Source: Rhipicephalus microplus
Taxonomy: Eukaryota; Arthropoda; Arachnida; Ixodida; Ixodidae
Assembly (NCBI RefSeq): GCF_043290135.1
Contig: NW_027464602.1
Location: 2,418,001 to 2,482,000 of the forward strand
Length of the DNA: 64,000 nt
Direction: 5' to 3'
Within the stretch, counting starts at the first letter, position 1. Each line of letters opens with the position of its first letter. The notes below the pieces were generated by a model. It did no database searches. It saw only the letters and a program-made list of their open reading frames with translations, and was not told the origin of the DNA. Position numbers and translations under genes: made by a program. This document shows, piece after piece, positions 7,691-64,000 of the stretch.

Positions 7691-8160
7691 CTGGGTATCT
7701 TCAAACTATCAGCGCAAAAAAAAGCGCCGCACCACCACCGGGTGGGCTCGAAACTCCAACCTTTTGGTTAACAGCCGATTGCGCAAGCCAATTGCGCCAC
7801 GGAGACAGTCCTGCTCCACTCTCACCACCATCAGAACATATCTTCAAAGCTATCAGCCTAAAGAAAAAAAGCACCGCGCCACCACCGGGTGGGATCGAAC
7901 TTCCAACCTTTCGGTTAACAGCCAATTGCGCCACGGAGACAGTCCTGCTCCACTCTCACCACCATGAGAACATATCTTTCAAGCTATCAGCCCAAAGAAA
8001 AAAAAAGCGCCGCACCACCACCGGGTGGGCTCGAACCTCCACCCTTTTGGTTAACGGCCGATCGCGCTAGCCAATTGCGCCACGGAGACAATCGTGCTCC
8101 ACGCTCACCAACATCAGAAAATATCTTCAAAGCTATCATCGCAAAAAAAAAGCAACACAC

Positions 8161-8234
8161 CCCACCCGGGAGGGCTCGAACCTCCAACTTTTTGGTTAAA
8201 AGCCGATCGCGCTAGCCAATGGCGCCACGGGGAC
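8161..8234 (-). pseudogene. tRNA-like unit with UUU (Lys) anticodon
   Basis: Same framework as the neighbouring units, but the anticodon loop reads CTTTTAA, with anticodon TTT at 8198-8200 instead of GTT. The T-stem is complete (GGAGG/CCTCC). The anticodon stem has lost a pair (CGG opposite CCA). One base change from the Asn form explains the anticodon, so this is more likely drift than a true Lys tRNA. The same form recurs near 11885, 20130, 25440, 33840 and 36640. Confidence 0.6.
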
Positions 8235-8605
8235 AGTCCTGCTCCACTCTCACCACCGTCAGAACATTTCTTCAGAGCTATCAGCCTAAAGAAAAAAAAG
8301 CGCCGCACCACCACCGGGTGGGCTCGAACCTACAACCTTTCGGTTAACAGCCGATGGCGCTAGCCAATTGCGCCACAGAGACAGTCGTGCTTCACTCTCA
8401 CCACCGTCAGACCATTTCTTCAGAGCTATCGCCCCAAAGAAAAAAAAAGCGCCGCACCACCACCGGGTGGGCTCGAACCTCCTACCTTTCGGTTAAAAGT
8501 TGATCGCGCTAGCCAATTGCGCCACGGAGACAGTCCTGCTCCACTCTCACCACCGTCAGAACATTTCTTCAGAGCTATCAGCCCAAAGAAGAAAAAGCGC
8601 CGCAC

Positions 8606-8679
8606 CACCACCGGGTGGGCTCGAAACTCCAACCTTTCGGTTATCAGCCGATCGCGCTAGCCAATTGCGCCATGGAGAC
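8606..8679 (-). pseudogene. tRNA-like unit with GAU (Ile) anticodon
   Basis: The anticodon loop reads CTGATAA, with GAT at 8643-8645, one change from GTT. The rest matches the tRNA-Asn consensus, but acceptor position 7 is A instead of G and the T-stem ends in a mismatch (GGAGT). The same variant recurs near 12322, 20572, 25734, 34132 and 36933, so it was copied with its higher-order block. Confidence 0.6.
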
Positions 8680-11552
8680 AGTCCTGCTCCACTCTCACCA
8701 CCATCAGAACATATCTTCAAAGCTATTAGCGCAAAGAAAAAAAGCACCGCGCCACCTTCGGGTGGGCTCGAACCTCCAACCTTTCGGTTAACATCCGATC
8801 GCGCTAACCCATTGCGCCACGGGGACAGTCTTGCTCCACTCTCACCACTATCAGAACATATCTTCAAAGCTATCAGCGCAAAGAAAACAAAAGCGCCGCA
8901 CCACCACCACCAGGTGGGCTCGAACCTCCAACCTTTCGGTTAACAGCCGATCGCGCTAGCCAATTGCGCCACAGAGACAGTCTTGCTCCACTCTCAACAC
9001 CATCAGAACATACCTTCAAAGCTACAAGCGCAAAGAAAAAAAAAGCGCCGCACCACCACCGGGTGGGCTCGAACCTCCAACCTTTCGGTTAACAGCCGAT
9101 CGCGCTGGCCAATTGCGCCACGGGGACAGTCTTGCTCCACCCTCACCACCATCAGAACATATCTTCAAAGCTATCAGCGCAAAGAAAAAAAAGCGCCGCA
9201 CCACCACCGGGTGTGCTCGAACCTCCAACCTTTCGGTTAACTGCCGATCGCGCTAGCCAATTGCGCCAGGGAGACAGTCCTGCTCCACTCTCACCACCAT
9301 CAGAACATATCTTCAAAGCTATCAGCCCAAAGAAAAAAAAGCACCGCACCACCACCGGGTGGGCTCGAACCTCCAACCTTTCGTTTAACAGCCAATCGCG
9401 CTAGCCAATTGCGCCACGGAGACAGTCCTGCTCCACTCTCACCACCATCAGAACATATCTTCAAAGCTATCAGCACAAAGAAAAAAAAGCGCCGCACCAC
9501 CACCGGGTAGGCTCGAAACTCCAACCTTTCGGTTAACAGCCGATCGCGCTAGCCAATTGCGCCATGGAGACAGTCCTGCTCCACTCTCACCACCATCAGA
9601 ACATATCTTCAAAGCTATTACCACAAAGAAAAAAGCAACACACCACTCCTGGGAGGGCTCGTACCTCCAACCTTTTGGTTAACAGCCGATCGCGCAAGCC
9701 AATTGCGCCACGGAGACAGTCCTGCTCCACTCTCACCACCATCAGAACATATCTTCAAAGCTATCAGCACAAAGAGAAAAAAGCGCCGCACCACCACCGG
9801 GTGGGCTCGAACCTCCAACCTTTCAGTTAACAGCCGATCGCGCTAGCCGATTGCGCCACGGAGACAGTCCTGGTCCACTCTCACCACCATCAGAACATAT
9901 CTTCAAAGCTATCAGCGCAAAGAAAAAAAAGCGCCGCGCCACCACCGGGTGGGCTCGAACCTCCAACCTTTCGGTTAACAGCCGATCGCGCTAACCCATT
10001 GCGCCACGGGGACAGTCTTCCTCCACTCTCACCACTATCAGAACATATCTTCAAAGCTATCAGCGCAAAAAAAAAAGCGCCGCACCACCACCGGGTGGGC
10101 TCGAACCTCCAACCTTTCGGTTAACAGCCGATCGCGCTAGCCAATTGCGCCACAGAGACAGTCTTGCTCCACTCTCAACACCATCAGAACATATCTTCAA
10201 AGCTACAAGCGCAAAGAAAAAAAAGCGCCGCACCACCACCGGGTGGGCTCGAACCTCCAACCTTTCGGTTAACAGCCGATCGCGCTAGCCAATTGCGCCA
10301 CGGGGACAGTCTTGCTCCACTCTCACCACCATCAGAACATATCTTCAAAGCTATCAGCGCAAAGAAAAAAAAGCGCCGCACCACCACCGGGTGGGCTCGA
10401 ACCTCCAACCTTTCGGTTAACAGCCGATCGCGCTAGCCCATTGCGCCACGGAGATAGCCTTGCTCCACTCTCAACACCATCAGAACATATCTTCAAAGCT
10501 ATTAGCGCAAAGAAAAAAAGCGCCGCACCACCACCGGGTGGGCTCGAACCTCCAACGTTTCGGTTAACAGCCGATCGCGCCAGCCAATTGCGCCAGGGAG
10601 ACAGTCCTGCTCAACTCTCACCACCATCAGAACATATCTTCAAAGCTATCAGCCCAAAGAAAAAAAGCACCGCACCACCACCGGGTGGGCTGGAACCTCC
10701 AACCTTTCGGTTAACAGCCAATCGCGTTAGCCAATTGCGCCACGGAGACAGTCCTGCTCCACTCTCACCGCCATCAGAACATATCTTAAAGCTATCAGCA
10801 CAAAGCGAAAAAAGCGCCGCACCACCACCGGGTGGGCTCGAAACTGCAACTTTTCGGTTAACAGCCGATCGGGCTAGCCAATTATGCCATGGAGACAGTC
10901 CTGCTCCACTCTCACCACCATCAGAACATATCTTCAAAGCTATTACTACAAAGAAAAAAAAGCGCCGCAACACCACCGGGTTGGCTCGAACCTCCAACCT
11001 TTCGGTTAACAGCCGATCGCGCTAGCCAATTGCGCCACGAAGACAGTCCTGCTGCACTCTCACCACCATCAGAACATATCTTCAAAGCTATTACCGCAAA
11101 GAAAAAAGCAACACACCACTCCCGGGAGGGCTCGAAATTCCAACCTTTCGGTTAACAGCCGATCGCGCTAGCCCATTGCGCCACGGAGACAGTTTTGCTC
11201 CACTCACACCACCATCAGAACATATCTTCAAACTATCAGCGCAAAAAAAGCGCAGCACCACCACCGGGTGGGCTCGGAATTCCAACCTTTTGGTTAACAG
11301 CCGATCGCGCTTGCCCATTGCGCCACGGGGACAGTCTTGCTCCACTCTCACCTCCATCAGAACATATCATCAAAGCTATGAGCCCAAAGAAAAAAAAGCG
11401 CCGCACCACCACCGGGTGGGCTCGAACCTTCAACCTTTCGGTTAACAGCCGATCGCACTAGCCAATTGCGCCACGGAGGCAGTCGTGCTCCACTCTTACC
11501 ACCATCAGAACATATCTTCAAAGCTATCAGCACAAAGAAAAAAGCAACACAC

Positions 11553-11626
11553 CACTCCCGGGAGGGCTCGAACCTCCAACTTTTCGGTTAACAGCCGATC
11601 GCGCTGGCCAATTGCTCCACGGAGAC
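11553..11626 (-). tRNA. tRNA-Asn(GUU)-like unit, second subfamily (complete T-stem)
   Basis: Example of the second subfamily, recognised on the plus strand by GCAACACACCACTCCCGGGA in place of GCGCCGCACCACCACCGGG. The T-stem GGAGG/CCTCC pairs fully, whereas the main type has an A-A mismatch there. The acceptor 3' strand is CGGGAGT, which pairs only partly with GTCTCCG. The anticodon is GTT. This copy also has a D-stem mismatch (GAGC against GCGC). It may be a tRNA relic rather than a working gene. Confidence 0.55.
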
Positions 11627-12517
11627 AGTCCTGCTCCACTCTCACCACCATTAGAACATATCTTTGAAGCTATCAGCCCAAAGAAAAAAAAAAGCGCCGC
11701 ACCACCACCGGGTGGGCTCGAACCTCCAACCTTTTGGTTAACGGCCGATCGCGCTAGCCAATTGCGCCACGGAGACAATTGTGCTCCACGCTCACCAACA
11801 TCAGAAAATATCTTCAAAGCTATCATCGCAAAGAAAAAAGCAACACACCCCACCCGGGAGGGCTCGAACCTCCAACTTTTTGGTTAAAAGCCGATCGCGC
11901 TAGCCAATGGCGCCACGGGGACAGTCCTGCTCCACTCTCACCACCGTCAGAACATTTCTTCAGAGCTATCAGCCTAAAGAAAAAAAGCGCCGCACCAGCA
12001 CCGGGTGGGCTCGAACCTACAACCTTTCGGTTAACAGCCGATCGCGCTAGCCAATTGCGCCACAGAGACAGTCGTGCTTCACTCTCACCACCGTCAGACC
12101 ATTTCTTCAAAGCTATCGCCCCAAAGAAAAAAAAAGCGCCGCACCACCACCGGGTGGGCTCGAACCTCCAACCTTTCGGTTAAAAGTTGATCGCGCTAGC
12201 CAATTGCGCCACGGAGACAGTCCTGCTCCACTCTCACCACCGTCAGAACATTTCTTCAGAGCTATCAGCCCAAAGAAGAAAAAGCGCCGCACCACCACCG
12301 GGTGGGCTCGAAACTCCAACCTTTCGGTTATCAGCCGATCGCGCTAGCCAATTGCGCCATGGAGACAGTCCTGCTCCACTCTCACCACCATCAGAACATA
12401 TCTTCAAAGCTATTAGCGCAAAGAAAAAAAGCGCCGCGCCACCTTCGGGTGGGCTCGAACCTCCAACCTTTCGGTTAACAGCCGATCGCGCTAACCCATT
12501 GCGCCACGGGGACAGTC

Positions 12518-15500
12518 TTGCTCCACTCTCACCACTATCAGAACATATCTTCAAAGCTATCAGCGCAAAGAAAAAAAAGCGCCGCACCACCACCAGGTGG
12601 GCTCGAACCTCCAACCTTTCGGTTAACAGCCGATCGCGTTAGCCAATTGCGCCACAGAGACAGTCTTGCTCCACTCTCAACACCATCAGAACATATCTTC
12701 AAAGCTACAAGCGCAAAAAAAAGCGCCGCACCACCACCGGGTGGGCTCGAACCTCCAACCTTTCGGTTAACAGCCGATCGCGCTGGCCAATTGCGCCACG
12801 GGGACAGTCCTGCTCCACTCTCACCACCATCAGAACATATCTTCAAAGCTATCAGCCCAAAGAAAAAAAAGCACCGCACCACCACCGGGTGGGCTCGAAC
12901 CTCCAACCTTTCGTTTAACAGCCAATCGCGCTAGCCAATTGCGCCACGGAGACAGTCCTGCTCCACTCTCACCACCATCAGAACATATCTTCAAAGCTAT
13001 CAGCACAAAGAAAAAAAAGCGCCGCACCACCACCGGGTAGGCTCGAAACTCCAACCTTTCGGTTAACAGCCGATCGCGCTAGCCAATTGCGCCATGGAGA
13101 CAGTCCTGCTCCACTCTCACCACCATCAGAACATATCTTCAAAGCTATCAGCGCAAAGAAAAAAAAGCGCCGCACCACCACCGGGTGTGCTCGAACCTCC
13201 AACCTTTCGGTTAACTGCCGATCGCGCTAGCCAATTGCGCCAGGGAGACAGTCCTGCTCCACTCTCACCACCATCAGAACATATCTTCAAAGCTATCAGC
13301 CCAAAGAAAAAAAAGCACCGCACCACCACCGGGTGGGCTCGAACCTCCAACCTTTCGTTTAACAGCCAATCGCGCTAGCCAATTGCGCCACGGAGACAGT
13401 CCTGCTCCACTCTCACCACCATCAGAACATATCTTCAAAGCTATCAGCACAAAGAAAAAAAAGCGCCGCACCACCACCGGGTAGGCTCGAAACTCCAACC
13501 TTTCGGTTAACAGCCGATCGCGCTAGCCAATTGCGCCATGGAGACAGTCCTGCTCCACTCTCACCACCATCAGAACATATCTTCAAAGCTATTACCACAA
13601 AGAAAAAAGCAACACACCACTCCTGGGAGGGCTCGTACCTCCAACCTTTTGGTTAACAGCCGATCGCGCAAGCCAATTGCGCCACGGAGACAGTCCTGCT
13701 CCACTCTCACCACCATCAGAACATATCTTCAAAGCTATCAGCACAAAGAGAAAAAAGCGCCGCACCACCACCGGGTGGGCTCGAACCTCCAACCTTTCAG
13801 TTAACAGCCGATCGCGCTAGCCGATTGCGCCACGGAGACAGTCCTGGTCCACTCTCACCACCATCAGAACATATCTTCAAAGCTATCAGCGCAAAGAAAA
13901 AAAAGCGCCGCGCCACCACCGGGTGGGCTCGAACCTCCAACCTTTCGGTTAACAGCCGATCGCGCTAACCCATTGCGCCACGGGGACAGTCTTCCTCCAC
14001 TCTCACCACTATCAGAACATATCTTCAAAGCTATCAGCGCAAAAAAAAAAAAGCGCCGCACCACCACCGGGTGGGCTCGAACCTCCAACCTTTCGGTTAA
14101 CAGCCGATCGCGCTAGCCAATTGCGCCACAGAGACAGTCTTGCTCCACTCTCAACACCATCAGAACATATCTTCAAATCTACAAGCGCAAAGAAAAAAAA
14201 GCGCCGCACCACCACCGGGTGGGCTCGAACCTCCAACCTTTCGGTTAACAGCCGATCGCGCTAGCCAATTGCGCCACGGGGACAGTCTTGCTCCACTCTC
14301 ACCACCATCAGAACATATCTTCAAAGCTATCAGCGCAAAGAAAAAAAAGCGCCGCACCACCACCGGGTGGGCTCGAACCTCCAACCTTTCGGTTAACAGC
14401 CGATCGCGCTAGCCCATTGCGCCACGGAGATAGCCTTGCTCCACTCTCAACACCATCAGAACATATCTTCAAAGCTATTAGCGCAAAGAAAAAAAGCGCC
14501 GCACCACCACCGGGTGGGCTCGAACCTCCAACGTTTCGGTTAACAGCCGATCGCGCCAGCCAATTGCGCCAGGGAGACAGTCCTGCTCAACTCTCACCAC
14601 CATCAGAACATATCTTCAAAGCTATCAGCCCAAAGAAAAAAAGCACCGCACCACCACCGGGTGGGCTGGAACCTCCAACCTTTCGGTTAACAGCCAATCG
14701 CGTTAGCCAATTGCGCCACGGAGACAGTCCTGCTCCACTCTCACCGCCATCAGAACATATCTTAAAGCTATCAGCACAAAGCGAAAAAAGCGCCGCACCA
14801 CCACCGGGTGGGCTCGAAACTGCAACTTTTCGGTTAACAGCCGATCGGGCTAGCCAATTATGCCATGGAGACAGTCCTGCTCCACTCTCACCACCATCAG
14901 AACATATCTTCAAAGCTATTACTACAAAGAAAAAAAAGCGCCGCAACACCACCGGGTTGGCTCGAACCTCCAACCTTTCGGTTAACAGCCGATCGCGCTA
15001 GCCAATTGCGCCACGAAGACAGTCCTGCTGCACTCTCACCACCATCAGAACATATCTTCAAAGCTATTACCGCAAAGAAAAAAGCAACACACCACTCCCG
15101 GGAGGGCTCGAAATTCCAACCTTTCGGTTAACAGCCGATCGCGCTAGCCCATTGCGCCACGGAGACAGTTTTGCTCCACTCACACCACCATCAGAACATA
15201 TCTTCAAACTATCAGCGCAAAAAAAGCGCAGCACCACCACCGGGTGGGCTCGGAATTCCAACCTTTTGGTTAACAGCCGATCGCGCTTGCCCATTGCGCC
15301 ACGGGGACAGTCTTGCTCCACTCTCACCACCATCAGAACATATCATCAAAGCTATGAGCCCAAAGAAAAAAAAGCGCCGCACCACCACCGGGTGGGCTCG
15401 AACCTTCAACCTTTCGGTTAACAGCCGATCGCACTAGCCAATTGCGCCACGGAGGCAGTCGTGCTGCACTCTTACCACCATCAGAACATATCTTCAAAGC

Positions 15501-15860
15501 TATCAGCACAAAGAAAAAAGCAACACACCACTCCCGGGAGGGCTCGAACCTCCAACTTTTCGGTTAACAGCCGATCGCGCTGGCCAATTGCTCCACGGAG
15601 ACAGTCCTGCTCCACTCTCACCACCATTAGAACATATCTTTCAAGCTATCAGCCCAAAGAAAAAAAAAAGCGCCGCACCACCACCGGGTGGGCTCGAACC
15701 TCCAACCTTTTGGTTAACGGCCGATCGCGCTAGCCAATTGCGCCACGGAGACAATTGTGCTCCACGCTCACCAACATCAGAAAATATCTTCAAAGCTATC
15801 ATCGCAAAGAAAAAAGCAACACACCCCACCCGGGAGGGCTCGAACCTCCAACCTTTCGGT
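12518..15860. repeat. Higher-order repeat copy (about 3.34 kb; partner 16787-20130)
   Basis: The order of distinctive unit variants in this block is reproduced at an offset of 4267-4269 bp at 16787-20130. Few differences are visible, for example CCTTTCGTTTAAC here near 13355 against CCTTTAGTTTAAC near 17624. Parts also match 9.1-11.8 kb (offset about 3975) and 20.76-23.4 kb. The 237-codon-long open stretch seen at 10312 recurs at 14288, 15903, 18555 and 21936 for the same reason. Confidence 0.75.
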
Positions 15861-16786
15861 TAACAGCCGATCGCGCTAGCCAATTGCGCCACGGGGACAG
15901 TCTTGCTCCACTCTCACCACCATCAGAACATATCTTCAAAGCTATCAGCGCAAAGAAAAAAAAGCGCCGCACCACCACCGGGTGGGCTCGAACCTCCAAC
16001 CTTTCGGTTAACAGCCGATCGCGCTAGCCCATTGCGCCACGGAGATAGCCTTGCTCCACTCTCAACACCATCAGAACATATCTTCAAAGCTATTAGCGCA
16101 AAGAAAAAAAGCGCCGCACCACCACCGGGTGGGCTCGAACCTCCAACGTTTCGGTTAACAGCCGATCGCGCCAGCCAATTGCGCCAGGGAGACAGTCCTG
16201 CTCAACTCTCACCACCATCAGAACATATCTTCAAAGCTATCAGCCCAAAGAAAAAAAGCACCGCACCACCACCGGGTGGGCTGGAACCTCCAACCTTTCG
16301 GTTAACAGCCAATCGCGTTAGCCAATTGCGCCACGGAGACAGTCCTGCTCCACTCTCACCGCCATCAGAACATATCTTAAAGCTATCAGCACAAAGCGAA
16401 AAAAGCGCCGCACCACCACCGGGTGGGCTCGAAACTGCAACTTTTCGGTTAACAGCCGATCGGGCTAGCCAATTATGCCATGGAGACAGTCCTGCTCCAC
16501 TCTCACCACCATCAGAACATATCTTCAAAGCTATTACTACAAAGAAAAAAAAGCGCCGCAACACCACCGGGTTGGCTCGAACCTCCAACCTTTCGGTTAA
16601 CAGCCGATCGCGCTAGCCAATTGCGCCACGAAGACAGTCCTGCTGCACTCTCACCACCATCAGAACATATCTTCAAAGCTATTAGCGCAAAGAAAAAAAG
16701 CGCCGCGCCACCTTCGGGTGGGCTCGAACCTCCAACCTTTCGGTTAACAGCCGATCGCGCTAACCCATTGCGCCACGGGGACAGTC

Positions 16787-19700
16787 TTGCTCCACTCTCA
16801 CCACTATCAGAACATATCTTCAAAGCTATCAGCGCAAAGAAAAAAAAGCGCCGCACCACCACCAGGTGGGCTCGAACCTCCAACCTTTCGGTTAACAGCC
16901 GATCGCGTTAGCCAATTGCGCCACAGAGACAGTCTTGCTCCACTCTCAACACCATCAGAACATATCTTCAAAGCTACAAGCGCAAAAAAAAGCGCCGCAC
17001 CACCACCGGGTGGGCTCGAACCTCCAACCTTTCGGTTAACAGCCGATCGCGCTGGCCAATTGCGCCACGGGGACAGTCCTGCTCCACTCTCACCACCATC
17101 AGAACATATCTTCAAAGCTATCAGCCCAAAGAAAAAAAAGCACCGCACCACCACCGGGTGGGCTCGAACCTCCAACCTTTCGTTTAACAGCCAATCGCGC
17201 TAGCCAATTGCGCCACGGAGACAGTCCTGCTCCACTCTCACCACCATCAGAACATATCTTCAAAGCTATCAGCACAAAGAAAAAAAAGCGCCGCACCACC
17301 ACCGGGTAGGCTCGAAACTCCAACCTTTCGGTTAACAGCCGATCGCGCTAGCCAATTGCGCCATGGAGACAGTCCTGCTCCACTCTCACCACCATCAGAA
17401 CATATCTTCAAAGCTATCAGCGCAAAGAAAAAAAAGCGCCGCACCACCACCGGGTGTGCTCGAACCTCCAACCTTTCGGTTAACTGCCGATCGCGCTAGC
17501 CAATTGCGCCAGGGAGACAGTCCTGCTCCACTCTCACCACCATCAGAACATATCTTCAAAGCTATCAGCCCAAAGAAAAAAAAGCACCGCACCACCACCG
17601 GGTGGGCTCGAACCTCCAACCTTTAGTTTAACAGCCAATCGCGCTAGCCAATTGCGCCACGGAGACAGTCCTGCTCCACTCTCACCACCATCAGAACATA
17701 TCTTCAAAGCTATCAGCACAAAGAAAAAAAAGCGCCGCACCACCACCGGGTAGGCTCGAAACTCCAACCTTTCGGTTAACAGCCGATCGCGCTAGCCAAT
17801 TGCGCCATGGAGACAGTCCTGCTCCACTCTCACCACCATCAGAACATATCTTCAAAGCTATTACCACAAAGAAAAAAGCAACACACCACTCCTGGGAGGG
17901 CTCGTACCTCCAACCTTTTGGTTAACAGCCGATCGCGCAAGCCAATTGCGCCACGGAGACAGTCCTGCTCCACTCTCACCACCATCAGAACATATCTTCA
18001 AAGCTATCAGCACAAAGAGAAAAAAGCGCCGCACCACCACCGGGTGGGCTCGAACCTCCAACCTTTCAGTTAACAGCCGATCGCGCTAGCCGATTGCGCC
18101 ACGGAGACAGTCCTGGTCCACTCTCACCACCATCAGAACATATCTTCAAAGCTATCAGCGCAAAGAAAAAAAAGCGCCGCGCCACCACCGGGTGGGCTCG
18201 AACCTCCAACCTTTCGGTTAACAGCCGATCGCGCTAACCCATTGCGCCACGGGGACAGTCTTCCTCCACTCTCACCACTATCAGAACATATCTTCAAAGC
18301 TATCAGCGCAAAAAAAAAAGCGCCGCACCACCACCGGGTGGGCTCGAACCTCCAACCTTTCGGTTAACAGCCGATCGCGCTAGCCAATTGCGCCACAGAG
18401 ACAGTCTTGCTCCACTCTCAACACCATCAGAACATATCTTCAAAGCTACAAGCGCAAAGAAAAAAAAGCGCCGCACCACCACCGGGTGGGCTCGAACCTC
18501 CAACCTTTCGGTTAACAGCCGATCGCGCTAGCCAATTGCGCCACGGGGACAGTCTTGCTCCACTCTCACCACCATCAGAACATATCTTCAAAGCTATCAG
18601 CGCAAAGAAAAAAAAGCGCCGCACCACCACCGGGTGGGCTCGAACCTCCAACCTTTCGGTTAACAGCCGATCGCGCTAGCCCATTGCGCCACGGAGATAG
18701 CCTTGCTCCACTCTCAACACCATCAGAACATATCTTCAAAGCTATTAGCGCAAAGAAAAAAAGCGCCGCACCACCACCGGGTGGGCTCGAACCTCCAACG
18801 TTTCGGTTAACAGCCGATCGCGCCAGCCAATTGCGCCAGGGAGACAGTCCTGCTCAACTCTCACCACCATCAGAACATATCTTCAAAGCTATCAGCCCAA
18901 AGAAAAAAAGCACCGCACCACCACCGGGTGGGCTGGAACCTCCAACCTTTCGGTTAACAGCCAATCGCGTTAGCCAATTGCGCCACGGAGACAGTCCTGC
19001 TCCACTCTCACCGCCATCAGAACATATCTTAAAGCTATCAGCACAAAGCGAAAAAAGCGCCGCACCACCACCGGGTGGGCTCGAAACTGCAACTTTTCGG
19101 TTAACAGCCGATCGGGCTAGCCAATTATGCCATGGAGACAGTCCTGCTCCACTCTCACCACCATCAGAACATATCTTCAAAGCTATTACTACAAAGAAAA
19201 AAAAGCGCCGCAACACCACCGGGTTGGCTCGAACCTCCAACCTTTCGGTTAACAGCCGATCGCGCTAGCCAATTGCGCCACGAAGACAGTCCTGCTGCAC
19301 TCTCACCACCATCAGAACATATCTTCAAAGCTATTACCGCAAAGAAAAAAGCAACACACCACTCCCGGGAGGGCTCGAAATTCCAACCTTTCGGTTAACA
19401 GCCGATCGCGCTAGCCCATTGCGCCACGGAGACAGTTTTGCTCCACTCACACCACCATCAGAACATATCTTCAAACTATCAGCGCAAAAAAAGCGCAGCA
19501 CCACCACCGGGTGGGCTCGGAATTCCAACCTTTTGGTTAACAGCCGATCGCGCTTGCCCATTGCGCCACGGGGACAGTCTTGCTCCACTCTCACCACCAT
19601 CAGAACATATCATCAAAGCTATGAGCCCAAAGAAAAAAAAGCGCCGCACCACCACCGGGTGGGCTCGAACCTTCAACCTTTCGGTTAACAGCCGATCGCA

Positions 19701-20130
19701 CTAGCCAATTGCGCCACGGAGGCAGTCGTGCTCCACTCTTACCACCATCAGAACATATCTTCAAAGCTATCAGCACAAAGAAAAAAGCAACACACCACTC
19801 CCGGGAGGGCTCGAACCTCCAACTTTTCGGTTAACAGCCGATCGCGCTGGCCAATTGCTCCACGGAGACAGTCCTGCTCCACTCTCACCACCATTAGAAC
19901 ATATCTTTCAAGCTATCAGCCCAAAGAAAAAAAAAAGCGCCGCACCACCACCGGGTGGGCTCGAACCTCCAACCTTTTGGTTAACGGCCGATCGCGCTAG
20001 CCAATTGCGCCACGGAGACAATTGTGCTCCACGCTCACCAACATCAGAAAATATCTTCAAAGCTATCATCGCAAAGAAAAAAGCAACACACCCCACCCGG
20101 GAGGGCTCGAACCTCCAACTTTTTGGTTAA
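16787..20130. repeat. Higher-order repeat copy (partner 12518-15860)
   Basis: Near-identical copy of 12518-15860 at offset 4267-4269. The 2-bp change in offset comes from A-run length differences. This pattern fits unequal crossing-over or gene conversion spanning about 23 units. Confidence 0.75.
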
Positions 20131-23100
20131 AAGCCGATCGCGCTAGCCAATGGCGCCACGGGGACAGTCCTGCTCCACTCTCACCACCGTCAGAACATTT
20201 CTTCAGAGCTATCAGCCTAAAGAAAAAAAGCGCCGCACCAGCACCGGGTGGGCTCGAACCTACAACCTTTCGGTTAACAGCCGATCGCGCTAGCCAATTG
20301 CGCCACAGAGACAGTCGTGCTTCACTCTCACCACCGTCAGACCATTTCTTCAAAGCTATCGCCCCAAAGAAAAAAAAAGCGCCGCACCACCACCGGGTGG
20401 GCTCGAACCTCCAACCTTTCGGTTAAAAGTTGATCGCGCTAGCCAATTGCGCCACGGAGACAGTCCTGCTCCACTCTCACCACCGTCAGAACATTTCTTC
20501 AGAGCTATCAGCCCAAAGAAGAAAAAGCGCCGCACCACCACCGGGTGGGCTCGAAACTCCAACCTTTCGGTTATCAGCCGATCGCGCTAGCCAATTGCGC
20601 CATGGAGACAGTCCTGCTCCACTCTCACCACCATCAGAACATATCTTCAAAGCTATTAGCGCAAAGAAAAAAAGCGCCGCGCCACCTTCGGGTGGGCTCG
20701 AACCTCCAACCTTTCGGTTAACAGCCGATCGCGCTAACCCATTGCGCCACGGGGACAGTCTTGCTCCACTCTCACCACTATCAGAACATATCTTCAAAGC
20801 TATCAGCGCAAAGAAAAAAAAGCGCCGCACCACCACCAGGTGGGCTCGAACCTCCAACCTTTCGGTTAACAGCCGATCGCGTTAGCCAATTGCGCCACAG
20901 AGACAGTCTTGCTCCACTCTCAACACCATCAGAACATATCTTCAAAGCTACAAGCGCAAAAAAAAGCGCCGCACCACCACCGGGTGGGCTCGAACCTCCA
21001 ACCTTTCGGTTAACAGCCGATCGCGCTGGCCAATTGCGCCACGGGGACAGTCTTGCTCCACCCTCACCACCATCAGAACATATCTTCAAAGCTATCAGCG
21101 CAAAGAAAAAAAAGCGCCGCACCACCACCGGGTGTGCTCGAACCTCCAACCTTTCGTTTAACAGCCGATCGCGCTAGCCAATTGCGCCATAGAGACAGTC
21201 CTGCTCCACTCTCACCACCATCAGAACATATCTTCAAAGCTATTACCACAAAGAAAAAAGCAACACACCACTCCTGGGAGGGCTCGTACCTCCAACCTTT
21301 TGGTTAACAGCCGATCGCGCAAGCCAATTGCGCCACGGAGACAGTCCTGCTCCACTCTCACCACCATCAGAACATATCTTCAAAGCTATCAGCACAAAGA
21401 GAAAAAAGCGCCGCACCACCACCGGGTGGGCTCGAACCTCCAACCTTTCAGTTAACAGCCGATCGCGCTAGCCGATTGCGCCACGGAGACAGTCCTGGTC
21501 CACTCTCACCACCATCAGAACATATCTTCAAAGCTATCAGCGCAAAGAAAAAAAAGCGCCGCGCCACCACCGGGTGGGCTCGAACCTCCAACCTTTCGGT
21601 TAACAGCCGATCGCGCTAACCCATTGCGCCACGGGGACAGTCTTCCTCCACTCTCACCACTATCAGAACATATCTTCAAAGCTATCAGCGCAAAAAAAAA
21701 GCGCCGCACCACCACCGGGTGGGCTCGAACCTCCAACCTTTCGGTTAACAGCCGATCGCGCTAGCCAATTGCGCCACAGAGACAGTCTTGCTCCACTCTC
21801 AACACCATCAGAACATATCTTCAAAGCTACAAGCGCAAAGAAAAAAAAGCGCCGCACCACCACCGGGTGGGCTCGAACCTCCAACCTTTCGGTTAACAGC
21901 CGATCGCGCTAGCCAATTGCGCCACGGGGACAGCCTTGCTCCACTCTCACCACCATCAGAACATATCTTCAAAGCTATCAGCGCAAAGAAAAAAAAGCGC
22001 CGCACCACCACCGGGTGGGCTCGAACCTCCAACCTTTCGGTTAACAGCCGATCGCGCTAGCCCATTGCGCCACGGAGATAGCCTTGCTCCACTCTCAACA
22101 CCATCAGAACATATCTTCAAAGCTATTAGCGCAAAGAAAAAAAGCGCCGCACCACCACCGGGTGGGCTCGAACCTCCAACGTTTCGGTTAACAGCCGATC
22201 GCGCCAGCCAATTGCGCCAGGGAGACAGTCCTGCTCAACTCTCACCACCATCAGAACATATCTTCAAAGCTATCAGCCCAAAGAAAAAAAGCACCGCACC
22301 ACCACCGGGTGGGCTGGAACCTCCAACCTTTCGGTTAACAGCCAATCGCGTTAGCCAATTGCGCCACGGAGACAGTCCTGCTCCACTCTCACCACCATCA
22401 GAACATATCTTAAAGCTATCAGCACAAAGCGAAAAAAGCGCCGCACCACCACCGGGTGGGCTCGAAACTGCAACTTTTCGGTTAACAGCCGATCGGGCTA
22501 GCCAATTATGCCATGGAGACAGTCCTGCTCCACTCTCACCACCATCAGAACATATCTTCAAAGCTATTACTACAAAGAAAAAAAAGCGCCGCAACACCAC
22601 CGGGTTGGCTCGAACCTCCAACCTTTCGGTTAACAGCCGATCGCGCTAGCCAATTGCGCCACGAAGACAGCCCTGCTGCACTCTCACCACCATCAGAACA
22701 TATCTTCAAAGCTATTACCGCAAAGAAAAAAGCAACACACCACTCCCGGGAGGGCTCGAAATTCCAACCTTTCGGTTAACAGCCGATCGCGCTAGCCCAT
22801 TGCGCCACGGAGACAGTTTTGCTCCACTCACACCACCATCAGAACATATCTTCAAACTATCAGCGCAAAAAAAGCGCAGCACCACCACCGGGTGGGCTCG
22901 GAATTCCAACCTTTTGGTTAACAGCCGATCGCGCTTGCCCATTGCGCCACGGGGACAGTCTTGCTCCACTCTCACCACCATCAGAACATATCATCAAAGC
23001 TATGAGCCCAAAGAAAAAAAAGCGCCGCACCACCACCGGGTGGGCTCGAACCTTCAACCTTTCGGTTAACAGCCGATCGCACTAGCCAATTGCGCCACGG

Positions 23101-50137: not shown

Positions 50138-50211
50138 CACCACCGGGAGGGCTCGAAACTCCAACCCTTCGGTTTACAGCCGATCGCGCTAGCCCATTGC
50201 GCCACGAGGAC
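50138..50211 (-). pseudogene. tRNA-like unit with GUA (Tyr) anticodon
   Basis: The loop reads CTGTAAA, with GTA at 50175-50177, one change from GTT. The remainder is the Asn framework, with acceptor 5' GTCCTCG and a T-stem ending in a mismatch. Related copies lie near 44290, 50763, 51650 and 56944. Confidence 0.6.
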
Positions 50212-51689
50212 AGTCTTGCTCCACTCTCACCACCATCAGAACATATCTACAAAGCTATCAGCACAAAGAAAAAAAAAGCGCCGCACCACCACCGGGTGGG
50301 CTCGAACCTCCAACCTTTCGGTTAACAGCCGATTGCGCAAGCCAATTGCGCCACGGAGACAGTCCTGCTCCACTCTCACCACCATCAGAACATATCTTCA
50401 AAGCTATCAGCACAAAGAAAAAAAAAGCGCCGCACCACCACCGGGTGGGCTCGAACCTCCAACCTTTCGGTTAACAGCCGATTGCGCAAGCCAATTGCGC
50501 CACGGAGACAGTCCTGCTCCACTCTCACCACATTCAGAACATATCTTCAAAGCTATCAGCCCAAAGAAAAAAAGCGCCGCGCCAACACCGGGTGGGCTCG
50601 AACCTCCAACCTTTCGGTTAACAGCCGATTGCGCAAGCCAATTGCGCCACGGAGACAGTCCTGCTCCACTCTCACCACCATCAGAACATATCTTCAAAGC
50701 TATTAGTGCAAAGTAAAAAGCAACACACCATTCCCGGGAGGGCTCAAAACTCAAACCCTTCGGTTTACAGCTGATCGCGCTAGCCCATTGCGCCACGAGG
50801 ACAGTCTTGCTCCACTCTCACCACCATCAGAACATATCTTCAAAGCTATCAGCACAAAGAAAAAAAAAGCGCCGCACCACCACCGGGTGGGCTCGAACCT
50901 CCAACCTTTCGGATAACAGCCGATTGCGCAAGCCAATTGCGCCACGGAGACAGTCCTGCTCCACTCTCACCACCATCAGAACATATCTTCAAAGCTATCA
51001 GCCCAAAGAAAAAAAGCGCCGCGCCACCACCGGGTGGGCTCGAACCTCCAACCTTTCGGTTAACAGCCGATTGCGCAAGCCAATTGCGCCACGGAGACAG
51101 TCCTGCTCCACTCTCACCACCGTCAAAACATTTATTCAGAGCTATCACCCCAAAGGAAAAAAAGCGCCGCACCACCACCGCGAGGGCTCGAAACTCCAAC
51201 CTTTCGGTTAACAGCCGATCGCGCTAGTCCATTGCGCCACGGACACAGTCTTGCTCCACTCTCACCACCATCAGAACATATCTTCAAAGCTATCAGCACA
51301 AAGAAAAAAAAAGCGCCGCACCACCACCGGGTGGGCTCGAACCTCCAACCTTTCGGTTAACAGCCGATTGCGCAAGCCAATTGCGCCACGGAGACAGTCC
51401 TGCTCCACTCTCACCACATTCAGAACATATCTTCAAAGCTATCAGCCCAAAGAAAAAAAGCGCCGCGCCACCACCGGGTGGGCTCGAACCTCCAACCTTT
51501 CGGTTAACAGCCGATTGCGCAAGCCAATTGCGCCACGGAGACAGTCCTGCTCCACTCTCACCACCATCAGAACATATCTTCAAAGCTATTAGTGCAAAGT
51601 AAAAAGCAACACACCATTCCCGGGAGGGCTCAAAACTCAAACCCTTCGGTTTACAGCTGATCGCGCTAGCCCATTGCGCCACGAGGACA

Positions 51690-54600
51690 GTCTTGCTCCA
51701 CTCTCACCACCATCAGAACATATCTTCAAAGCTATCAGCACAAAGAAAAAAAAAGCGCCGCACCACCACCGGGTGGGCTCGAACCTCCAACCTTTCGGAT
51801 AACAGCCGATTGCGCAAGCCAATTGCGCCACGGAGACAGTCCTGCTCCACTCTCACCACCATCAGAACATATCTTCAAAGCTATCAGCCCAAAGAAAAAA
51901 AGCGCCGCGCCACCACCGGGTGGGCTCGAACCTCCAACCTTTCGGTTAACAGCCGATCGCGCTTGCCCATTGCGCCACGGAGACAGCCTTGCTCCACTCT
52001 CAACACTATCAGAACATATCTTCAAAGCTATTAGCGCAAAGAAAAAAAGCGCCGCGCCACCACCGGGTGGGCTCGAACCTCCAACCTTTCGGTTAACAGC
52101 CGATCGCGCTAGCCAATTGCGCCACGGAGACAGTCCTGCTCCATTTTCACCACCATCAGAACATATCTTCAAAGCTAATAGTGCAAAGAAAAAAGCGCCA
52201 CACCATCACCGGGTGGGCTCGAACCTCCAACCTTTCGGTTAACAGCCGATCGCGCAAGCCAATTGCGCCACGGAGACAGTCCTGCTCCACTCTCACCACC
52301 GTCAAAACATTTATTCAGAGCTATCACCCCAAAGAAAAAAAAGCGCCGCACCACCACCGGGAGGGCTCGAAACTCCAACCTTTCGGTTAACAGCCGATCG
52401 CGCTAGTCCATTGCGCCACGGACACAGTCTTGCTCCACTCTCACCACCATCAGAACATATCTTCAAAGCTATCAGCGCAAAGAAAAAAAAGCGCCGCACC
52501 ACCACCGGGTGGGCTCGAACCTCCAACCTTTCGGTTAACAGCCGATTGCGCTAGCCCATTGCGCCACGGAGACAGTCTTGCTCCCTTCTCACCACCATCA
52601 GAACATATCTTCAAAGCTATCAGCCCAAAGAAAAAGAAGCGCCGCACCACCACAGGGTGGGCTCGAACCTCCAACCTTTCGGTTAACAGCCGATCGCACT
52701 AGCCAATTGCGCCACGGAGACAGTCGTGCTCCACTCTTACCACCATCAGAACATATCTTCAAAGCTATCAGCGCAAAGAAAAAAGCAACACACCACTCCC
52801 GGGAGGGCTCGAACCTCCAACTTTTGGGTTAACAGCCGATCGCGCTGGCCAATTGCGCCACGGAGACAGTCCTGCTGCACTCTCACCACCATTAGAACAT
52901 ATCTTTCAATCTATCAGCCCAAGGAATAAAAAGCGCCGACACCACCGGGTGGGCTCGAACCTCCAACCTTTTGGTTAACGGCCGATCGCGCTAGCCAATT
53001 GCGCCACGGAGACAATCGTCCTCCACGCTCACCACCATCAGAACATATCTTCAAAGCTATCAGTGCAAAGAAAAAAGCAACACACCACTCCCGGGAGGGC
53101 TCGAAACTCCAACCTTTCGGTTAACAGCCCATCGCGCTAGCCCATTGCGCCACGGAGACAGTCTTGCTCCACTCTCACCACCATCAGAACATATCTTCAA
53201 AGCTATCAGCGCAAAGAAAAAAAAGTGCCGCACCACCACCGGGTGGGCTCGAACCTCCAGCCTTTCGGTTAATGGCCGATCGCGCAAGCCAATGGCGCCA
53301 CGGAGACAGACATGCTCCACTCTCACCACCATCAGAACATATCTTCAAACCTATCAGCCCCCAAAAAAGCACCGCACCACCACCGGGTGGGCTGGAACCT
53401 CCAACCTTTCGGTTAACAGCCAATCGCGTTAGCCAATTGTGCCGCGGAGACAGTCCTGCTCCACTCTCACCAACATCAGAACATATCTTCAAAGCTATCA
53501 GCACAAAGAGAAAAAAGCGCCGCACCACCACCGGGTGGGCTCGAAACTCCAACCTTTCGGTTAACAGCCGATCGTGCTAGCCAATTGCGCCATGGAGACA
53601 GTCCTGCTCCACTCTCACCACCATCAGAACATATCTTCAAAGCTATTACCACAAAGAAAAAAGCAACACACCACTCCTGGGAGGGCTCGAAACTCCAACC
53701 TTTCGGTTAACAGCCGATCGCGCTAGCCTATTGCGCCACATAGACAGCCTTGCTTCACTCTCAACACCATCAGAACATATCTTCAAAGCTAATAGCGCAA
53801 AGAAAAAAAGCGCCGCACCACCACCGGGTGGGCTTGAACCTCCAACCTTTCGGTTAACAGCCGATCGCGCTAGCCAATTGCGCCACGGAAACAGTCCTGC
53901 TCCACTCTCACCACCATCAGAACATATCTTCAAAGCTATTAGTGCAAAGAAAAAAGCAGCACACCACTCCCGGGAGGACTCGAAACTCCAACCTTTCGGT
54001 TAACAACCGATCGCGCTAGCCCATTGCGCCACGGGGACAGTCTTGCTCCACTCTCGCCACCATCAGTACATATCTTCAAAGCTATCAGCACAAAGAAAAA
54101 AAACGCCGCACCACAACCGGGTGGGCTCGAACCTCCAACCGTTCAGTTAACAGCCGATCGCGCTAGCCCATTGCGCCACGGGGACAGTCTTGCTCCACTC
54201 TCACCACCATCAGAACATATCTTCAAAGCTATCAGCACAAAGAGAAAAAAGCGCCGCACCACCACCGGGTGGGCTCGAAACTCCAACCTTTCGGTTAACA
54301 GCCGATCGCGCTAGCCAATTGCGCCATGGAGACAGTCCTGCTCCACTCTCACCACCACCAGAACATATCTTCAAAGCTATTACCACAAAGAAAAAAGCAA
54401 CACACCACTCCTGGGAGGGCTCGAAACTCCAACCTTTCGGTTAACAGCCGATCGCGCTAGCCCATTGCGCCACGGAGACAGCCTTGCTCCACTCTCACCA
54501 CCATTAGAACATATCTTTCAAGAAATCAGCCCAAAGAATAGAAAGCGCCGCGCCACCACCGGGTGGGCTCAAACCTCCAACCTTTCGGTTAACAGCCGAT

Positions 54601-55553
54601 CGCGCTAGCCAATTGCGCCACGGAGACAGTCCTGCTCCATTTTCACCACCATCAGAACATATCTTCAAAGCTAATACTGCAAAGAAAAAAGCGCCACACC
54701 ATCACCGGGTGGGCTCGAATCTCCAACATTTCGGTTAACAGCCGATCGCGCAAGCCAATTGCGCCACGGAGACAGTCCTGCTCCACTCTCACCACCGTCA
54801 AAACATTTATTCAGAGCTATCACCCCAAAGAAAAAAAAGCGCCGCACCACCACCGGGAGGGCTCGAACCTCCAACCTTTCGGTTAACAGCCGATTGCGCA
54901 AGCCAATTGCGCCACGGAGACAGTCCTGCTCCACTCTCACCACCATCAGAACATATCTTCAAAGCTATCAGCCCAAAAAAAAAAGCACCGCACCACCACC
55001 GGGTGGGCTCGAACTTCCAACCTTTCGGTTAACAGCCAATCGCGCTAGCCAATTGCGCCACGGAGACAGTCCTGCTTCACTCTCACCACCATCAGAACAT
55101 ATCTTCAAAGCTATCAGCGCAAAGAAAAAAAAAGCGCCGCACCACCACCGGGTGGGCTCGAACCTCCAACCTTTCGGTTAACAGCCGATCGCGCAAGCCA
55201 ATTGCGCCACGGAGACAGTCCTGCTTCACTCTCACCACCATCAGAACATATATTCAAAGCTATCAGCCCAAAGAATAGAAAGCGCCGCGCCACCACCGGG
55301 TGGGCTCGAACCTCCAACCTTTCGGTTAACAGCCGATCGCGCTAGCCCATTGTGCCACGGAGACAGCCTTGCTCCACTCTCAACACCATCAGAACATATC
55401 TTCAAAGCTATTAGCGCAAAGAAAAAAAGCGCCGCGCCACCACCGGGTGGGCTGGAACCTCCAACCTTTCGGTTAACAGCCAATCGCGCTAGCCAATTGC
55501 GCCACGGAGACAGTCCTGCTCTATTTTCACCACCATCAGAACATATCTTCAAA
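51690..55553. repeat. Higher-order repeat copy (partner 45507-49370)
   Basis: Near-identical copy at offset 6183-6184. A visible difference is GCTCGAACCTCCAACATT near 48533 against GCTCGAATCTCCAACATT near 54716. The one-base change of offset comes from an A-run. Confidence 0.8.
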
Positions 55554-59507: not shown

Positions 59508-60060
59508 TCAGAACATATCTTCAAAGCTATCAGCACAAAGAGAAAAAAGCGCCGCACCACCACCGGGTGGGCTCGAAACTCCAACCTTTCGGTTAACAGC
59601 CGATCGCGCTAGCCAATTGCGCCATGGAGACAGTCCTGCTCCACTCTCACCACCATCAGAACATATCTTCAAAGCTATCAGCACAAAGAAAAAAAGCGCC
59701 ACACCAACACCGGGTGGGCTCGAACCTCCAACCTTTCGGATAACAGCCGATCGTGCTAGCCAACTGCGCCACGGAGACAGTCGTGCTCCACTCTCACCAG
59801 CATCAGAACATATCTTCAAAGCTATCAGCCCAAAGAAAAAAAAGCGCCGCACCACCCCCGGGTGGGCTCGAACCTCCAACCTTTCGGTTAACAGCCGATC
59901 GCGCTAGCCTATTGCCCCACTGAGACAGTCGTGCTCCACTCTCACCACCGTCAGAACATTTCTTCAGAGCTATCACCCCAAAGAAAAAAAAGCGCCGCAC
60001 CACCACCGGGTGGGCTCGAACCTCCAACATTTCGGTTAACAGCCGATCACGCTAGCCAAT
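59508..60060. repeat. Higher-order repeat copy (partner at offset 2351)
   Basis: Variants such as GCCACACCAACACCGGG, CACCAGCATCAG and CACCCCCGGGTGG occur in the same order at 61859-62380. Confidence 0.65.
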
Positions 60061-63000
60061 TGCGCCACGAAGACAGTCCTGCTGCACTCTCACCACCATC
60101 AGAACATATCTTCAAAGCTATTACCGCAAAGAAAAAAGCAACACACCACTCCCGGGAGGGCTCGAAATTCCAACCTTTCGGCTAACAGCCGATCGCGCTA
60201 GCCCATTGCGCCACGGAGACAGTCTTGCTCCACTCTCACCACCATCAGAACATATCTTCAGAGCTATCAGCCCAAAGAAAAAAAAGCGCCGCACCACCAC
60301 CGGGTGGGCTCGAACCTCCAACCTTTCGGTTAACAGCCGATCGCACTAGCCAATTGCGCCACGGAGACAGTCGTGCTCCACTCTTACCACCATCAGAACA
60401 TATCTTCAAAGCTATCAGCGCAAAGAAAAAAGCAACACACCACTCCCGGGAGGGCTCGAACCTCCATCTTTTGGGTTAACCGCCGATCGCGCTGGCCAAT
60501 TGCGCCACGGAGACAGTCCTGCTGCACTCTCACCACCATTAGAACATATCTTTCAAGCTATCAGCCCAAGGAATAAAAAGCGCCGACACCACCGGGTGGG
60601 CTCGAACCTCCAACCTTTTGGTTAACGGCCGATCGCGCTAGCCAATTGCGCCACGGAGACAATCGTGCTCCATGCTCACCACCATCAGAACATATCTTCA
60701 AAGCTATCAGTGCAAAGAAAAAAGCAACACACCACTCCCGGGAGGGCTCGAAACTCCAACCTTTCGGTTAACAGCCCATCGCGCTAGCCCATTGCGCCAC
60801 GGAGACAGTCTTGCTCCACTCTCACCACCATCAGAACATATCTTCAAAGCTATCAGCGCAAAGAAAAAAAAGCGCCGCACCACCACCGGGTGGGCTCGAA
60901 CCTCCAGCCTTTCGGTTAATGGCCGATCGCGCAAGCCAATTGCGCCACGGAGACAGTCATGCTCCACTCTCACCACCATCAGAACATATCTTCAAAGCTA
61001 TCAGCACAAAGAGAAAAAAGCGCCGCACCACCACCGGGTGGGCTCGAAACTCCAACCTTTCGGTTAACAGCCGATCGTGCTAGCCAATTGCGCCATGGAG
61101 ACAGTCCTGCTCCACTCTCACCACCATCAGAACATATCTTCAAAGCTATTACCACAAAGAAAAAAGCAACACACCACTCCTGGGAGGGCTCGAAACTCCA
61201 ACCTTTCGGTTAACAGCCGATCGCGCTAGCCCATTGCGCCACATAGACAGCCTTGCTCCACTCTCAACACCATCAGAACATATCTTCAAAGCTATTAGCG
61301 CAAAGAAAAAAAGCGCCGCACCACCACCGGGTGGGCTCGAACCTCCAACCTTTCGGTTAACAGCCAATCGCGCTAGCCAATTGCGCCACGGAGACAGTCC
61401 TGCTCCACTCTCACCACCATCAGAACATATCTTCAAAGCTATTAGTGCAAAGAAAAAGCAGCACACCACTCCCGGGAGGACTCGAAACTCCAACCTTTCG
61501 GTTAACAGCCGATCGCGCTAGCCCATTGCGCCACGGGGACAGTCTTGCTCCACTCTCACCACCATCAGTACATATCTTCAAAGCTATCAGCACAAAGAAA
61601 AAAAACGCCGCACCACCACCGGGTGGGCTCGAACCTCCAACCTTTCGGTTAACAGCCGATCGCGCAAGCCAATTGCGCCGCGGAGACAGTCCTGCTCCAC
61701 TCTCACCACCATCAGAACATATCTTCAAAGCTATCGGCCCAAAGAAAAAAAGCACCGCACCACCACCGGGTGGGCTCGAACCTCCAACCTTCTGGTTAAC
61801 AGGTAATCGCGCTAGCCAATTGCGCCACGGAGACAGTCCTGCTCCACTCTCACCACCATCAGAACATATCTTCAAAGCTATCAGCACAAAGAGAAAAAGG
61901 CGCCGCACCACCACCGGGTGGGCTCGAAACTCCAACCTTTCGGTTAACAGCCGATCGCGCTAGCCAATTGCGCCATGGAGACAGTCCTGCTCCACTCTCA
62001 CCACCATCAGAACATATCTTCAAAGCTATCAGCACAAAGAAAAAAAGCGCCACACCAACACCGGGTGGGCTCGAACCTCCAACCTTTCGGATAACAGCCG
62101 ATCGTGCTAGCCAACTGCGCCACGGAGACAGTCGTGCTCCACTCTCACCAGCATCAGAACATATCTTCAAAGCTATCAGCCCAAAGAAAAAAAAGCGCCG
62201 CACCACCCCCGGGTGGGCTCGAACCTCCAACCTTTCGGTTAACAGCCGATCGCGCTAGCCTATTGCCCCACTGAGACAGTCGTGCTCCACTCTCACCACC
62301 GTCAGAACATTTCTTCAGAGCTATCACCCCAAAGAAAAAAAAGCGCCGCACCACCACCGGGTGGGCTCGAACCTCCAACCTTTCGGTTAACAGCCGATCG
62401 CACTAGCCAATTGCGCCACGGAGACAGTCGTGCTCCACTCTTACCACCATCAGAACATATCTTCAAAGCTATCAGCGCAAAGAAAAAAGCAACACACCAC
62501 TCCCGGGAGGGCTCGATCCTCCAACTTTTGGGTTAACAGCCGATCGCGCTGGCCAATTGCGCCACGGAGACAGTCCTGCTGCACTCTCACCACCATTAGA
62601 ACATATCTTTCAAGCTATCAGCCCAAGGAATAAAAAGCGCCGACACCACCGGGTGGGCTCGAACCTCCAACCTTTTGGTTAACGGCCGATCGCGCTAGCC
62701 AATTGCGCCACGGAGACAATCGTGCTCCATGCTCACCACCATCAGAACATATCTTCAAAGCTATCAGTGCAAAGAAAAAAGCAACACACCACTCCCGGGA
62801 GGGCTCGAAACTCCAACCTTTCGGTTAACAGCCCATCGCGCTAGCCCATTGCGCCACGGAGACAGTCTTGCTCCACTCTCACCACCATCAGAACATATCT
62901 TCAAAGCTATCAGCGCAAAGAAAAAAAAAGCGCCGCACCACCACCGGGTGGGCTGGAACCTCCAACCTTTCGGTTAACAGCCAATCGCGTTAGCCAATTG

Positions 63001-64000
63001 CGCCACAGAGACAGTCCTGCTCCACTCTCACCACCATCAGAACATATCTTCAAAGCTATCAGCACAAAGAGAAAAAAGCGCCGCACCACCACCGGGTGGG
63101 CTCGAACCTCCAACCTTTCGGTTAACAGCCAATCGCGCTAGCCAATTGCGCCACGGAGACAGTCCTGCTCCACTCTCACCACCATCAGAACATATCTTCA
63201 AAGCTATTAGTGCAAAGAAAAAAGCAGCACACCACTCCCGGGAGGACTCGAAACTCCAACCTTTCGGTTAACAGCCGATCGCGCTAGCCCATTGCGCCAC
63301 GGGGACAGTCTTGCTCCACTCTCACCACCATCAGTACATAACTTCAAAGCTATCAGCACAAAGAAAAAAAACGCCGCACCACCACCGGGTGGGCTCGAAC
63401 CTCCAACCTTTCGGTTAACAGCCGATCGCGCAAGCCAATTGCGCCACGGAGACAGTCCTGCTGCACTCTCACCACCATTAGAGCATATATTTCAAGCTAT
63501 CAGCCCAAGGAATAAAAAGCGCCGACACCACCGGGTGGGCTCGAACCTCCAACCGTTTGGTTAACGGCCGATCGCGCTAGCCAATTGCGCCACGGAGACA
63601 ATCGTGCTCCACGCTCACCACCATCATAACATATCTTCAAAGCTATCAGTGCAAAGAAAAAAGCAACACACCACTCCCGGGAGGGCTCGAAACTCCAACC
63701 TTTCGGTTAACAGCCCATCGCGCTAGCCCATTGCGCCACGGAGACAGTCTTGCTCCACTCTCACCACCATCAGAACATATCTTCAAAGCTATCAGCGCAA
63801 AGAAAAAAAAGCGCCGCACCACCACCGGGTGGGCTCGAACCTCCAGCCTTTCGGTTAATGGCCGATCGCGCAAGCCAATTGCGCCACGGAGACAGTCATG
63901 CTCCACTCTCACCACCATCAGAACATATCTTCAAAGCTATCAGCCCCCAAAAAAAAAGCACCGCACCACCACCGGGTGGGCTGGAACCTCCAACCTTTCG

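Follow-up and report, generated by a model that had tools for sequence, protein, structure and literature searches.

A 148-bp satellite in Rhipicephalus microplus with a decayed tRNA-Asn(GUU) gene as its probable founder

Introduction

Does a locus that carries hundreds of tRNA-like sequences side by side supply the cell with tRNA, or is it repetitive DNA that began as a tRNA gene? The question is raised by 64,000 nucleotides from the hard tick Rhipicephalus microplus (NCBI RefSeq assembly GCF_043290135.1, contig NW_027464602.1, positions 2,418,001 to 2,482,000 of the forward strand), hereafter called the window, most of which is a tandem array of ~148-bp units that resemble tRNA-Asn(GUU). A first-pass annotation, made from the letters of the sequence, had offered three explanations: a massively amplified tRNA family, the head of a short interspersed nuclear element (SINE) turned satellite, or a structural array that uses RNA polymerase III (Pol III) sites as chromatin boundaries. 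Here we analyze the array computationally. Our results point with good confidence to satellite DNA, whose 148-bp monomer would descend from a decayed tRNA-Asn(GUU) gene and would have been amplified by duplication, and not to working tRNA genes.

Results

The array consists of 148-bp units in a single orientation

Tandem Repeats Finder (TRF) reported one array with a period of 148 bp from 7,920 to 64,000, the last base of the window; further rows, with periods of 442 and 294, started at 7,696, the earliest start of the array, and at 31,547, respectively. When one unit was used as the nhmmer query against the window, 348 matches were returned, 344 of them full length (reaching from unit position 10 or lower to position 138 or higher), and every one lay on the minus strand. 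The same search gave zero matches on the plus strand, in the 7.7-kb left flank and in a long terminal repeat (LTR) retrotransposon that lies within the array at 26,394–31,546. This element separates a left part (7,696–26,393), detected by TRF, nhmmer, ARAGORN and Rfam, from a right part (31,547–64,000), detected by TRF, nhmmer and Rfam, which touches the window end; in both, the tRNA sense is on the minus strand. Excluding the insert, the array measures 51,152 bp, or about 345 units arranged head to tail. The first-pass annotation had described about 345 head-to-tail units of ~148 bp over more than 50 kb, in one orientation and running on past the window; our searches agree with it on count, length and orientation and trace the array to the window end. 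Its extent of 7,696 to 64,000 also stands, but the stretch is not continuous, as the retrotransposon interrupts it. Amid the full-length units, a 159-bp stretch at 24,579–24,737 fell below the full-length criterion and may be a copy that is incomplete or has diverged.

In minus-strand sense, the unit comprises a 74-nt tRNA-Asn-like part, a GC-rich 3′ extension of ~9 nt, a T run and a spacer of ~53 bp, as exemplified by the unit at 31,664–31,810 (minus strand), whose tRNA-like part occupies 31,737–31,810. The anticodon was GTT in 312 of the 344 full-length units (TTT in 11, ATT in 7, GAT in 6, GTA in 5 and GTG in 3), and the discriminator base was G73 in all 344. Runs of at least four T residues, starting ~9 nt after the tRNA part, were found in 338 units (6–8 long in 284) and could serve as Pol III terminators. 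In relaxed form, the A box was present in 308 units and the B box (GWTCRANNC) in 220, with 188 units having the two together; the strict B-box form GGTTCGANTCC occurred in none of the 344 and GGTTCGAGCC in 207. With boxes kept in many units and a T run in nearly all, transcription of the units by Pol III is possible.

ARAGORN called 225 tRNAs in the array, whereas every control gave 0: 10 dinucleotide shuffles, the reversed array, 10 permutations in which the columns of every unit were permuted alike, the left flank and the insert. The tRNA likeness thus held in the comparison with shuffled sequence that the first-pass annotation had proposed. The Rfam tRNA model (RF00005) produced 288 matches at its gathering score (97, 87 and 104 in three parts of the window), all on the minus strand and the lowest starting at 7,733, and 318 matches at E ≤ 1. 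The best score was 50 bits. One of the two top-scoring units lies at 48,591–48,738 on the minus strand (50.0 bits over 48,665–48,738) and the other at 54,774–54,921.

No full-length unit retains an intact cloverleaf

Taken at face value, the GTT anticodons, the invariant G73 and the T runs would suit a functional reservoir of tRNA-Asn genes that boosts the tRNA supply. We scored the stems of the 344 full-length units against the standard cloverleaf map of 21 pairs, counting a gap as a broken pair. Under this map the human and fly tRNA-Asn have 0 broken pairs. No unit of the array has an intact cloverleaf: 2 pairs were broken in 2 units (among them the unit at 48,591–48,738), 3 in 128 units and at least 4 in 214. 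The 74-nt tRNA-Asn(GUU) framework noted in the first pass is therefore recognisable but not sound, being defective in every full-length unit.

The consensus breaks pairs 27-43 (A-A), 51-63 (A-A) and 4-69 (U-U) in tRNA numbering, which correspond to alignment columns 28-44, 52-64 and 4-70. A27 and A43 were each found in 343 of the 344 units, and the 27-43 pair failed in 343. The units fall into a main monomer type (275 units) and a second type (69 units), which are interspersed irregularly. The second-type consensus also carries A27-A43, and pairs 3-70 and 53-61 (columns 3-71 and 54-62) are broken in it; neither consensus cloverleaf is intact.

Evidence on the age of the A27-A43 lesion came from spurious open reading frames (ORFs) that run across tRNA-Asn-like genes in other organisms. 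A search with a spurious ORF of the satellite as the query kept 106 proteins from 7,988 scored candidates; the Glu-Arg frame was present in all 106 and the TADR string of the array in none, and 110 of 118 pattern matches had a Glu codon covering position 27. A Glu codon at this place in other tRNA-Asn-like genes implies that the usual base 27 is a pyrimidine, so that the A27-A43 lesion is derived, and it was very probably carried by the founder of the array. Among the 12 proteins examined out of the 106, none belonged to a satellite like the array.

The tRNA part shows little sign of selection

Taken overall, changes in the stems are not compensated beyond chance: standard pairs filled 3,541 of 4,368 stem cells in 208 distinct units, the mean after the 3′ letters had been redealt was 3,547.7, and 981 of 1,000 such shuffles were equal or better. 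Where the consensus is paired, 276 single changes disrupt the pair and 93 leave a wobble. Two column pairs, 54-62 (150 versus 153.5) and 4-70 (40 versus 42.2), were below the shuffles. The tRNA and spacer columns did not differ in entropy (p = 0.93), and the folding of four tRNA parts (two consensus forms and two real units) was no more stable than that of shuffled sequences (z 0.6 to 1.2). These data give little indication that the tRNA part is under selection.

Since every full-length unit is broken, stem changes show no overall compensation and the tRNA part is no more conserved than the spacer, a decayed tRNA-Asn probably founded the array, and the units would not make working tRNA-Asn. 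For the same reasons we reject a functional tRNA cluster, and with it the massively amplified tRNA family of the first pass in so far as working genes were meant. The units have the GUU anticodon and G73 of a functional tRNA-Asn; complete stems and compensation were not found. A 2026 preprint reports that the tRNA gene number of ticks exceeds that of other Acari and of insects 20–30-fold, as a gene reservoir would lead one to expect, but describes the rise as uniform over isotypes, unlike an Asn-only array (PMC13105059). Such a reservoir is, in our judgment, scarcely credible.

Several observations nevertheless weigh against a decayed and unselected tRNA part. The pair map itself was validated on just two tRNA-Asn sequences, those of human and fly. 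The conserved G73 (344 of 344) and GTT (312 of 344) are also expected of functional genes. In the second monomer type, T63, present in 69 of the 344 units, re-pairs with A51. Among ten double changes where the consensus is paired, seven yield a standard pair, and in two column pairs the excess over the shuffles was roughly 2 standard deviations or larger (6-68, 195 versus 193.1; 31-41, 193 versus 191.4). The A- and B-box columns were slightly less variable than the remaining tRNA columns (p = 0.079). Finally, equal conservation of tRNA part and spacer is no proof that selection is absent, as repeat turnover can homogenise any sequence.

The array has grown by block duplication

The mean pairwise identity of the units was 0.897, and the 344 units comprise 210 distinct sequences. 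We found 17 block pairs of 6–26 units with identities of 98.4–99.9%. The largest duplication, within 45,506–55,511 on the minus strand, pairs 26 units at 45,506–49,327 with those at 51,689–55,511 at a mean identity of 99.87%; another pairs 25 units at 9,128–12,805 and 17,371–21,048 (99.87%). In a third, at 33,579–39,179 (minus strand), two blocks of 19 units lie side by side (33,579–36,379 and 36,380–39,179; 99.82%). We infer unequal exchange, of which recurring large blocks are the expected signature. A fixed higher-order repeat, to which the TRF periods of 442 and 294 might correspond, was rejected, as identity was flat over lags 1–12 (0.891–0.901); the best lags, 56, 79, 42 and 52, reflect the block duplications. 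The locus thus presents a long head-to-tail array of a short monomer, with homogenisation and block duplication among its copies, and the first-pass view, with the tRNA as core of a satellite proper, is upheld, half of the ~148-bp unit being tRNA-like.

Near-identical blocks as long as 26 units (99.87%) are also what an assembler might leave behind on over-expanding a short real cluster. Arguing against such an artefact are the 210 distinct sequences among 344 units, the irregular order of the two monomer types and the retrotransposon with its target duplication inside the array. This evidence does not fix the exact length of the array, but it makes an assembly artefact very unlikely.

A retrotransposon inserted after a neighbouring block had duplicated

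The insert, which the first-pass annotation did not contain, is a Ty3/gypsy-type LTR retrotransposon of 5.15 kb on the minus strand (26,394–31,546). Its LTRs, at 26,394–26,557 and 31,383–31,546, are identical over 164 bp, and the element is flanked by a 4-bp target duplication, ATAT. Its ORFs, at 26,594–30,166 and 30,094–31,488 on the minus strand, matched Retrotrans_gag, RVT_1 and integrase domains of Pfam (gag plus two pol pieces). Using 400 bp from each side of the element, joined, as the query, we found uninterrupted counterparts of the insertion site at 34,394–35,193 and 37,194–37,993, each 99.6% identical over 800 bp. Because these counterparts lie in duplicated blocks, the insertion postdates the duplication of those blocks, and it looks recent. 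The insertion site is ~31 bp before the next tRNA-like start; as a single event, this is uninformative on targeting. Just within the 5′ LTR, a TGG-led stretch on the minus strand is a possible primer-binding site, by eye unlike the Asn 3′ end.

Of 7,984 candidates scored, 112 were relatives of the gag protein at E up to 1e-3, and all 28 named ones come from hard ticks, of the genera Rhipicephalus, Amblyomma, Haemaphysalis, Dermacentor and Ixodes. The best named relative is from Rhipicephalus pulchellus (77% identity over 82%); R. microplus entries had 41–80% identity over 22–60%. By these relatives alone, the host is likely to be a rhipicephaline tick.

The left flank

The flanking DNA next to the array (7,303–7,695) contains short GCCGACATTGGCC-like direct and inverted repeats, and no homology to the unit was found in it. 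Farther to the left, TRF reported a two-copy tandem repeat of ~133 bp at 4,873–5,150, and a broken stretch at 3,500–4,500 resembles, by eye, a pogo-like transposase. Two putative exons at 6,249–6,654, followed by a stop and then an AATAAA-like stretch, could belong to a small gene or a fragment and had no Pfam match. Protein pieces of the left flank in general matched no Pfam family.

Discussion

How could a tRNA gene have become a satellite of some 50 kb? We suggest that the founder was a tRNA-Asn gene with prior damage, at minimum the loss of pair 27-43 in its anticodon stem. A single founder of this kind would have duplicated head to tail, and the array would then have expanded through unequal exchange and the duplication of blocks of up to 26 units, giving the two intermingled monomer types. 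The LTR element would have entered late, after the neighbouring block had been duplicated. Repeat turnover, and not selection on the tRNA, may have maintained the array.

A decayed tRNA part with retained Pol III boxes is the typical appearance of a SINE head. The founder might accordingly have been one copy of a dispersed tRNA-Asn-derived SINE that was amplified in tandem, and the decayed acceptor and T stems, together with the many retained Pol III boxes, fit this idea. A tRNA-related head is indeed found in the unit, but a body and tail in the same transcript are not: the T run ~9 nt past the tRNA part would end a Pol III transcript before any SINE body. Nor was a further copy of the unit found in the 7.7-kb flank or the insert. 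Hard ticks do have a tRNA-derived SINE, Ruka, with at least 152,923 copies estimated in R. microplus, but Ruka resembles a serine tRNA, not an asparagine tRNA (PMC3160391). We regard a SINE founder as possible though on the unlikely side. This proposal concerns origin only, and its likelihood overlaps with that of a satellite founded by a decayed tRNA-Asn gene.

The surviving promoter elements bear on a further possibility, that the array is selected as a landing site for Pol III or TFIIIC and has a structural role or one as a chromatin boundary, in which case the A and B boxes would matter and the RNA would not. The relaxed boxes (A in 308, B in 220, both in 188 of 344 units) and the slightly lower variability of the box columns lean towards it, but the relaxed B box is absent from 124 units, the strict form from all 344, and the lower variability of the box columns does not reach significance. 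In humans, a tRNA tandem repeat has been proposed as a boundary element; that case, however, depends on a CTCF site within a unit of 7.3 kb (PMC4041453). Such a selected role appears improbable for the tick array. On present evidence the array would not be a selected Pol III array, and a Pol III reading stays conceivable because many units have kept their boxes and T runs. In one form of it, units with both boxes and a terminator would yield short tRNA-like RNAs unable to become tRNA, and the TFIIIC sites or the RNAs might shape tick chromatin, for instance at a subtelomere or centromere. We offer this as a speculation and think it rather unlikely to be correct.

The array is best read as a tRNA satellite, a kind already known from maize. 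The maize satellite tRNASAT_ZM, identified earlier and held in Repbase, occupies 91.95 kb on arm 4L in Mo17 and is likewise a long tandem array of a tRNA-related unit, although in a plant (PMC10335936); the likeness is one of kind, and we claim no common descent. Among animals, Hydractinia also has tandem arrays of tRNAs and other small RNAs, which its authors call unusual outside Entamoeba. They contain tens to hundreds of near-identical, evenly spaced tRNA copies; in contrast to the tick array, with one defective tRNA-Asn per 148 bp, they cover tRNAs for all 20 amino acids, have spacers of up to a few thousand bases and are presented as functional noncoding RNA (PMC11067881). Entamoeba itself carries tRNA sequences in tandem arrays, but as 25 array units, each with at most five tRNA genes, whose spacers resemble microsatellites (PMC2652664). 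The human tandem repeat at 1q23.3 holds tRNA genes in a 7.3-kb unit with 9–43 copies per allele, tRNA making up less than 6% of the unit (PMC4041453), whereas half of the tick unit is tRNA-like and it has more than 340 copies.

Other tick repeats differ as well. Ruka is tRNA-derived and has a Pol III promoter, but it is dispersed, 176–195 bp long by the stated positions and serine-tRNA-like, whereas the unit described here is tandem and asparagine-like (PMC3160391). The Ixodes scapularis satellites ISR-1 to ISR-3 are abundant, with an ISR-2 unit of 95–99 bp, but no relation to tRNA is mentioned in the accessible text (PMC4748124). A 2010 survey noted very large tRNA gene (tDNA) numbers, and clusters of them, in some animals (PMC2888827).

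Our searches of open-licence literature turned up no description of a tick tRNA-Asn satellite. An exact 30-base pattern from the spacer had 0 matches in a viral and a genome contig collection, whose viral and prokaryotic content says little on eukaryotes. Patterns of the tRNA core gave 0 matches in viral contigs with either T27 or A27, and the T27 pattern also gave 0 in the genome contigs, a weakly informative result that had no eukaryotic tRNA-Asn control. In 2009, Hill et al. reportedly described RMR-1, a subtelomeric tandem repeat of R. microplus of ~149 bp. In length the two monomers are nearly equal, and RMR-1 may be the same satellite as the tRNA-Asn-like array. If so, the novelty lies in its tRNA origin.

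Arrays of this kind can inflate unfiltered tRNA counts by hundreds of calls at a single locus, as the 225 ARAGORN calls illustrate. The tRNA genes of the 2026 preprint had passed a score cut of 50 and a eukaryotic confidence filter, and the reported rise is uniform over isotypes, so that the array alone would not explain the tRNA excess of ticks (PMC13105059). In small-RNA data, the fixed A27-A43 mismatch would provide a simple sequence tag to separate transcripts of the array from true tRNA-Asn. For R. microplus, the locus would show by how short a path a 50-kb satellite can arise from a damaged Pol III gene, the probable lesions of the founder being still readable in nearly every copy.

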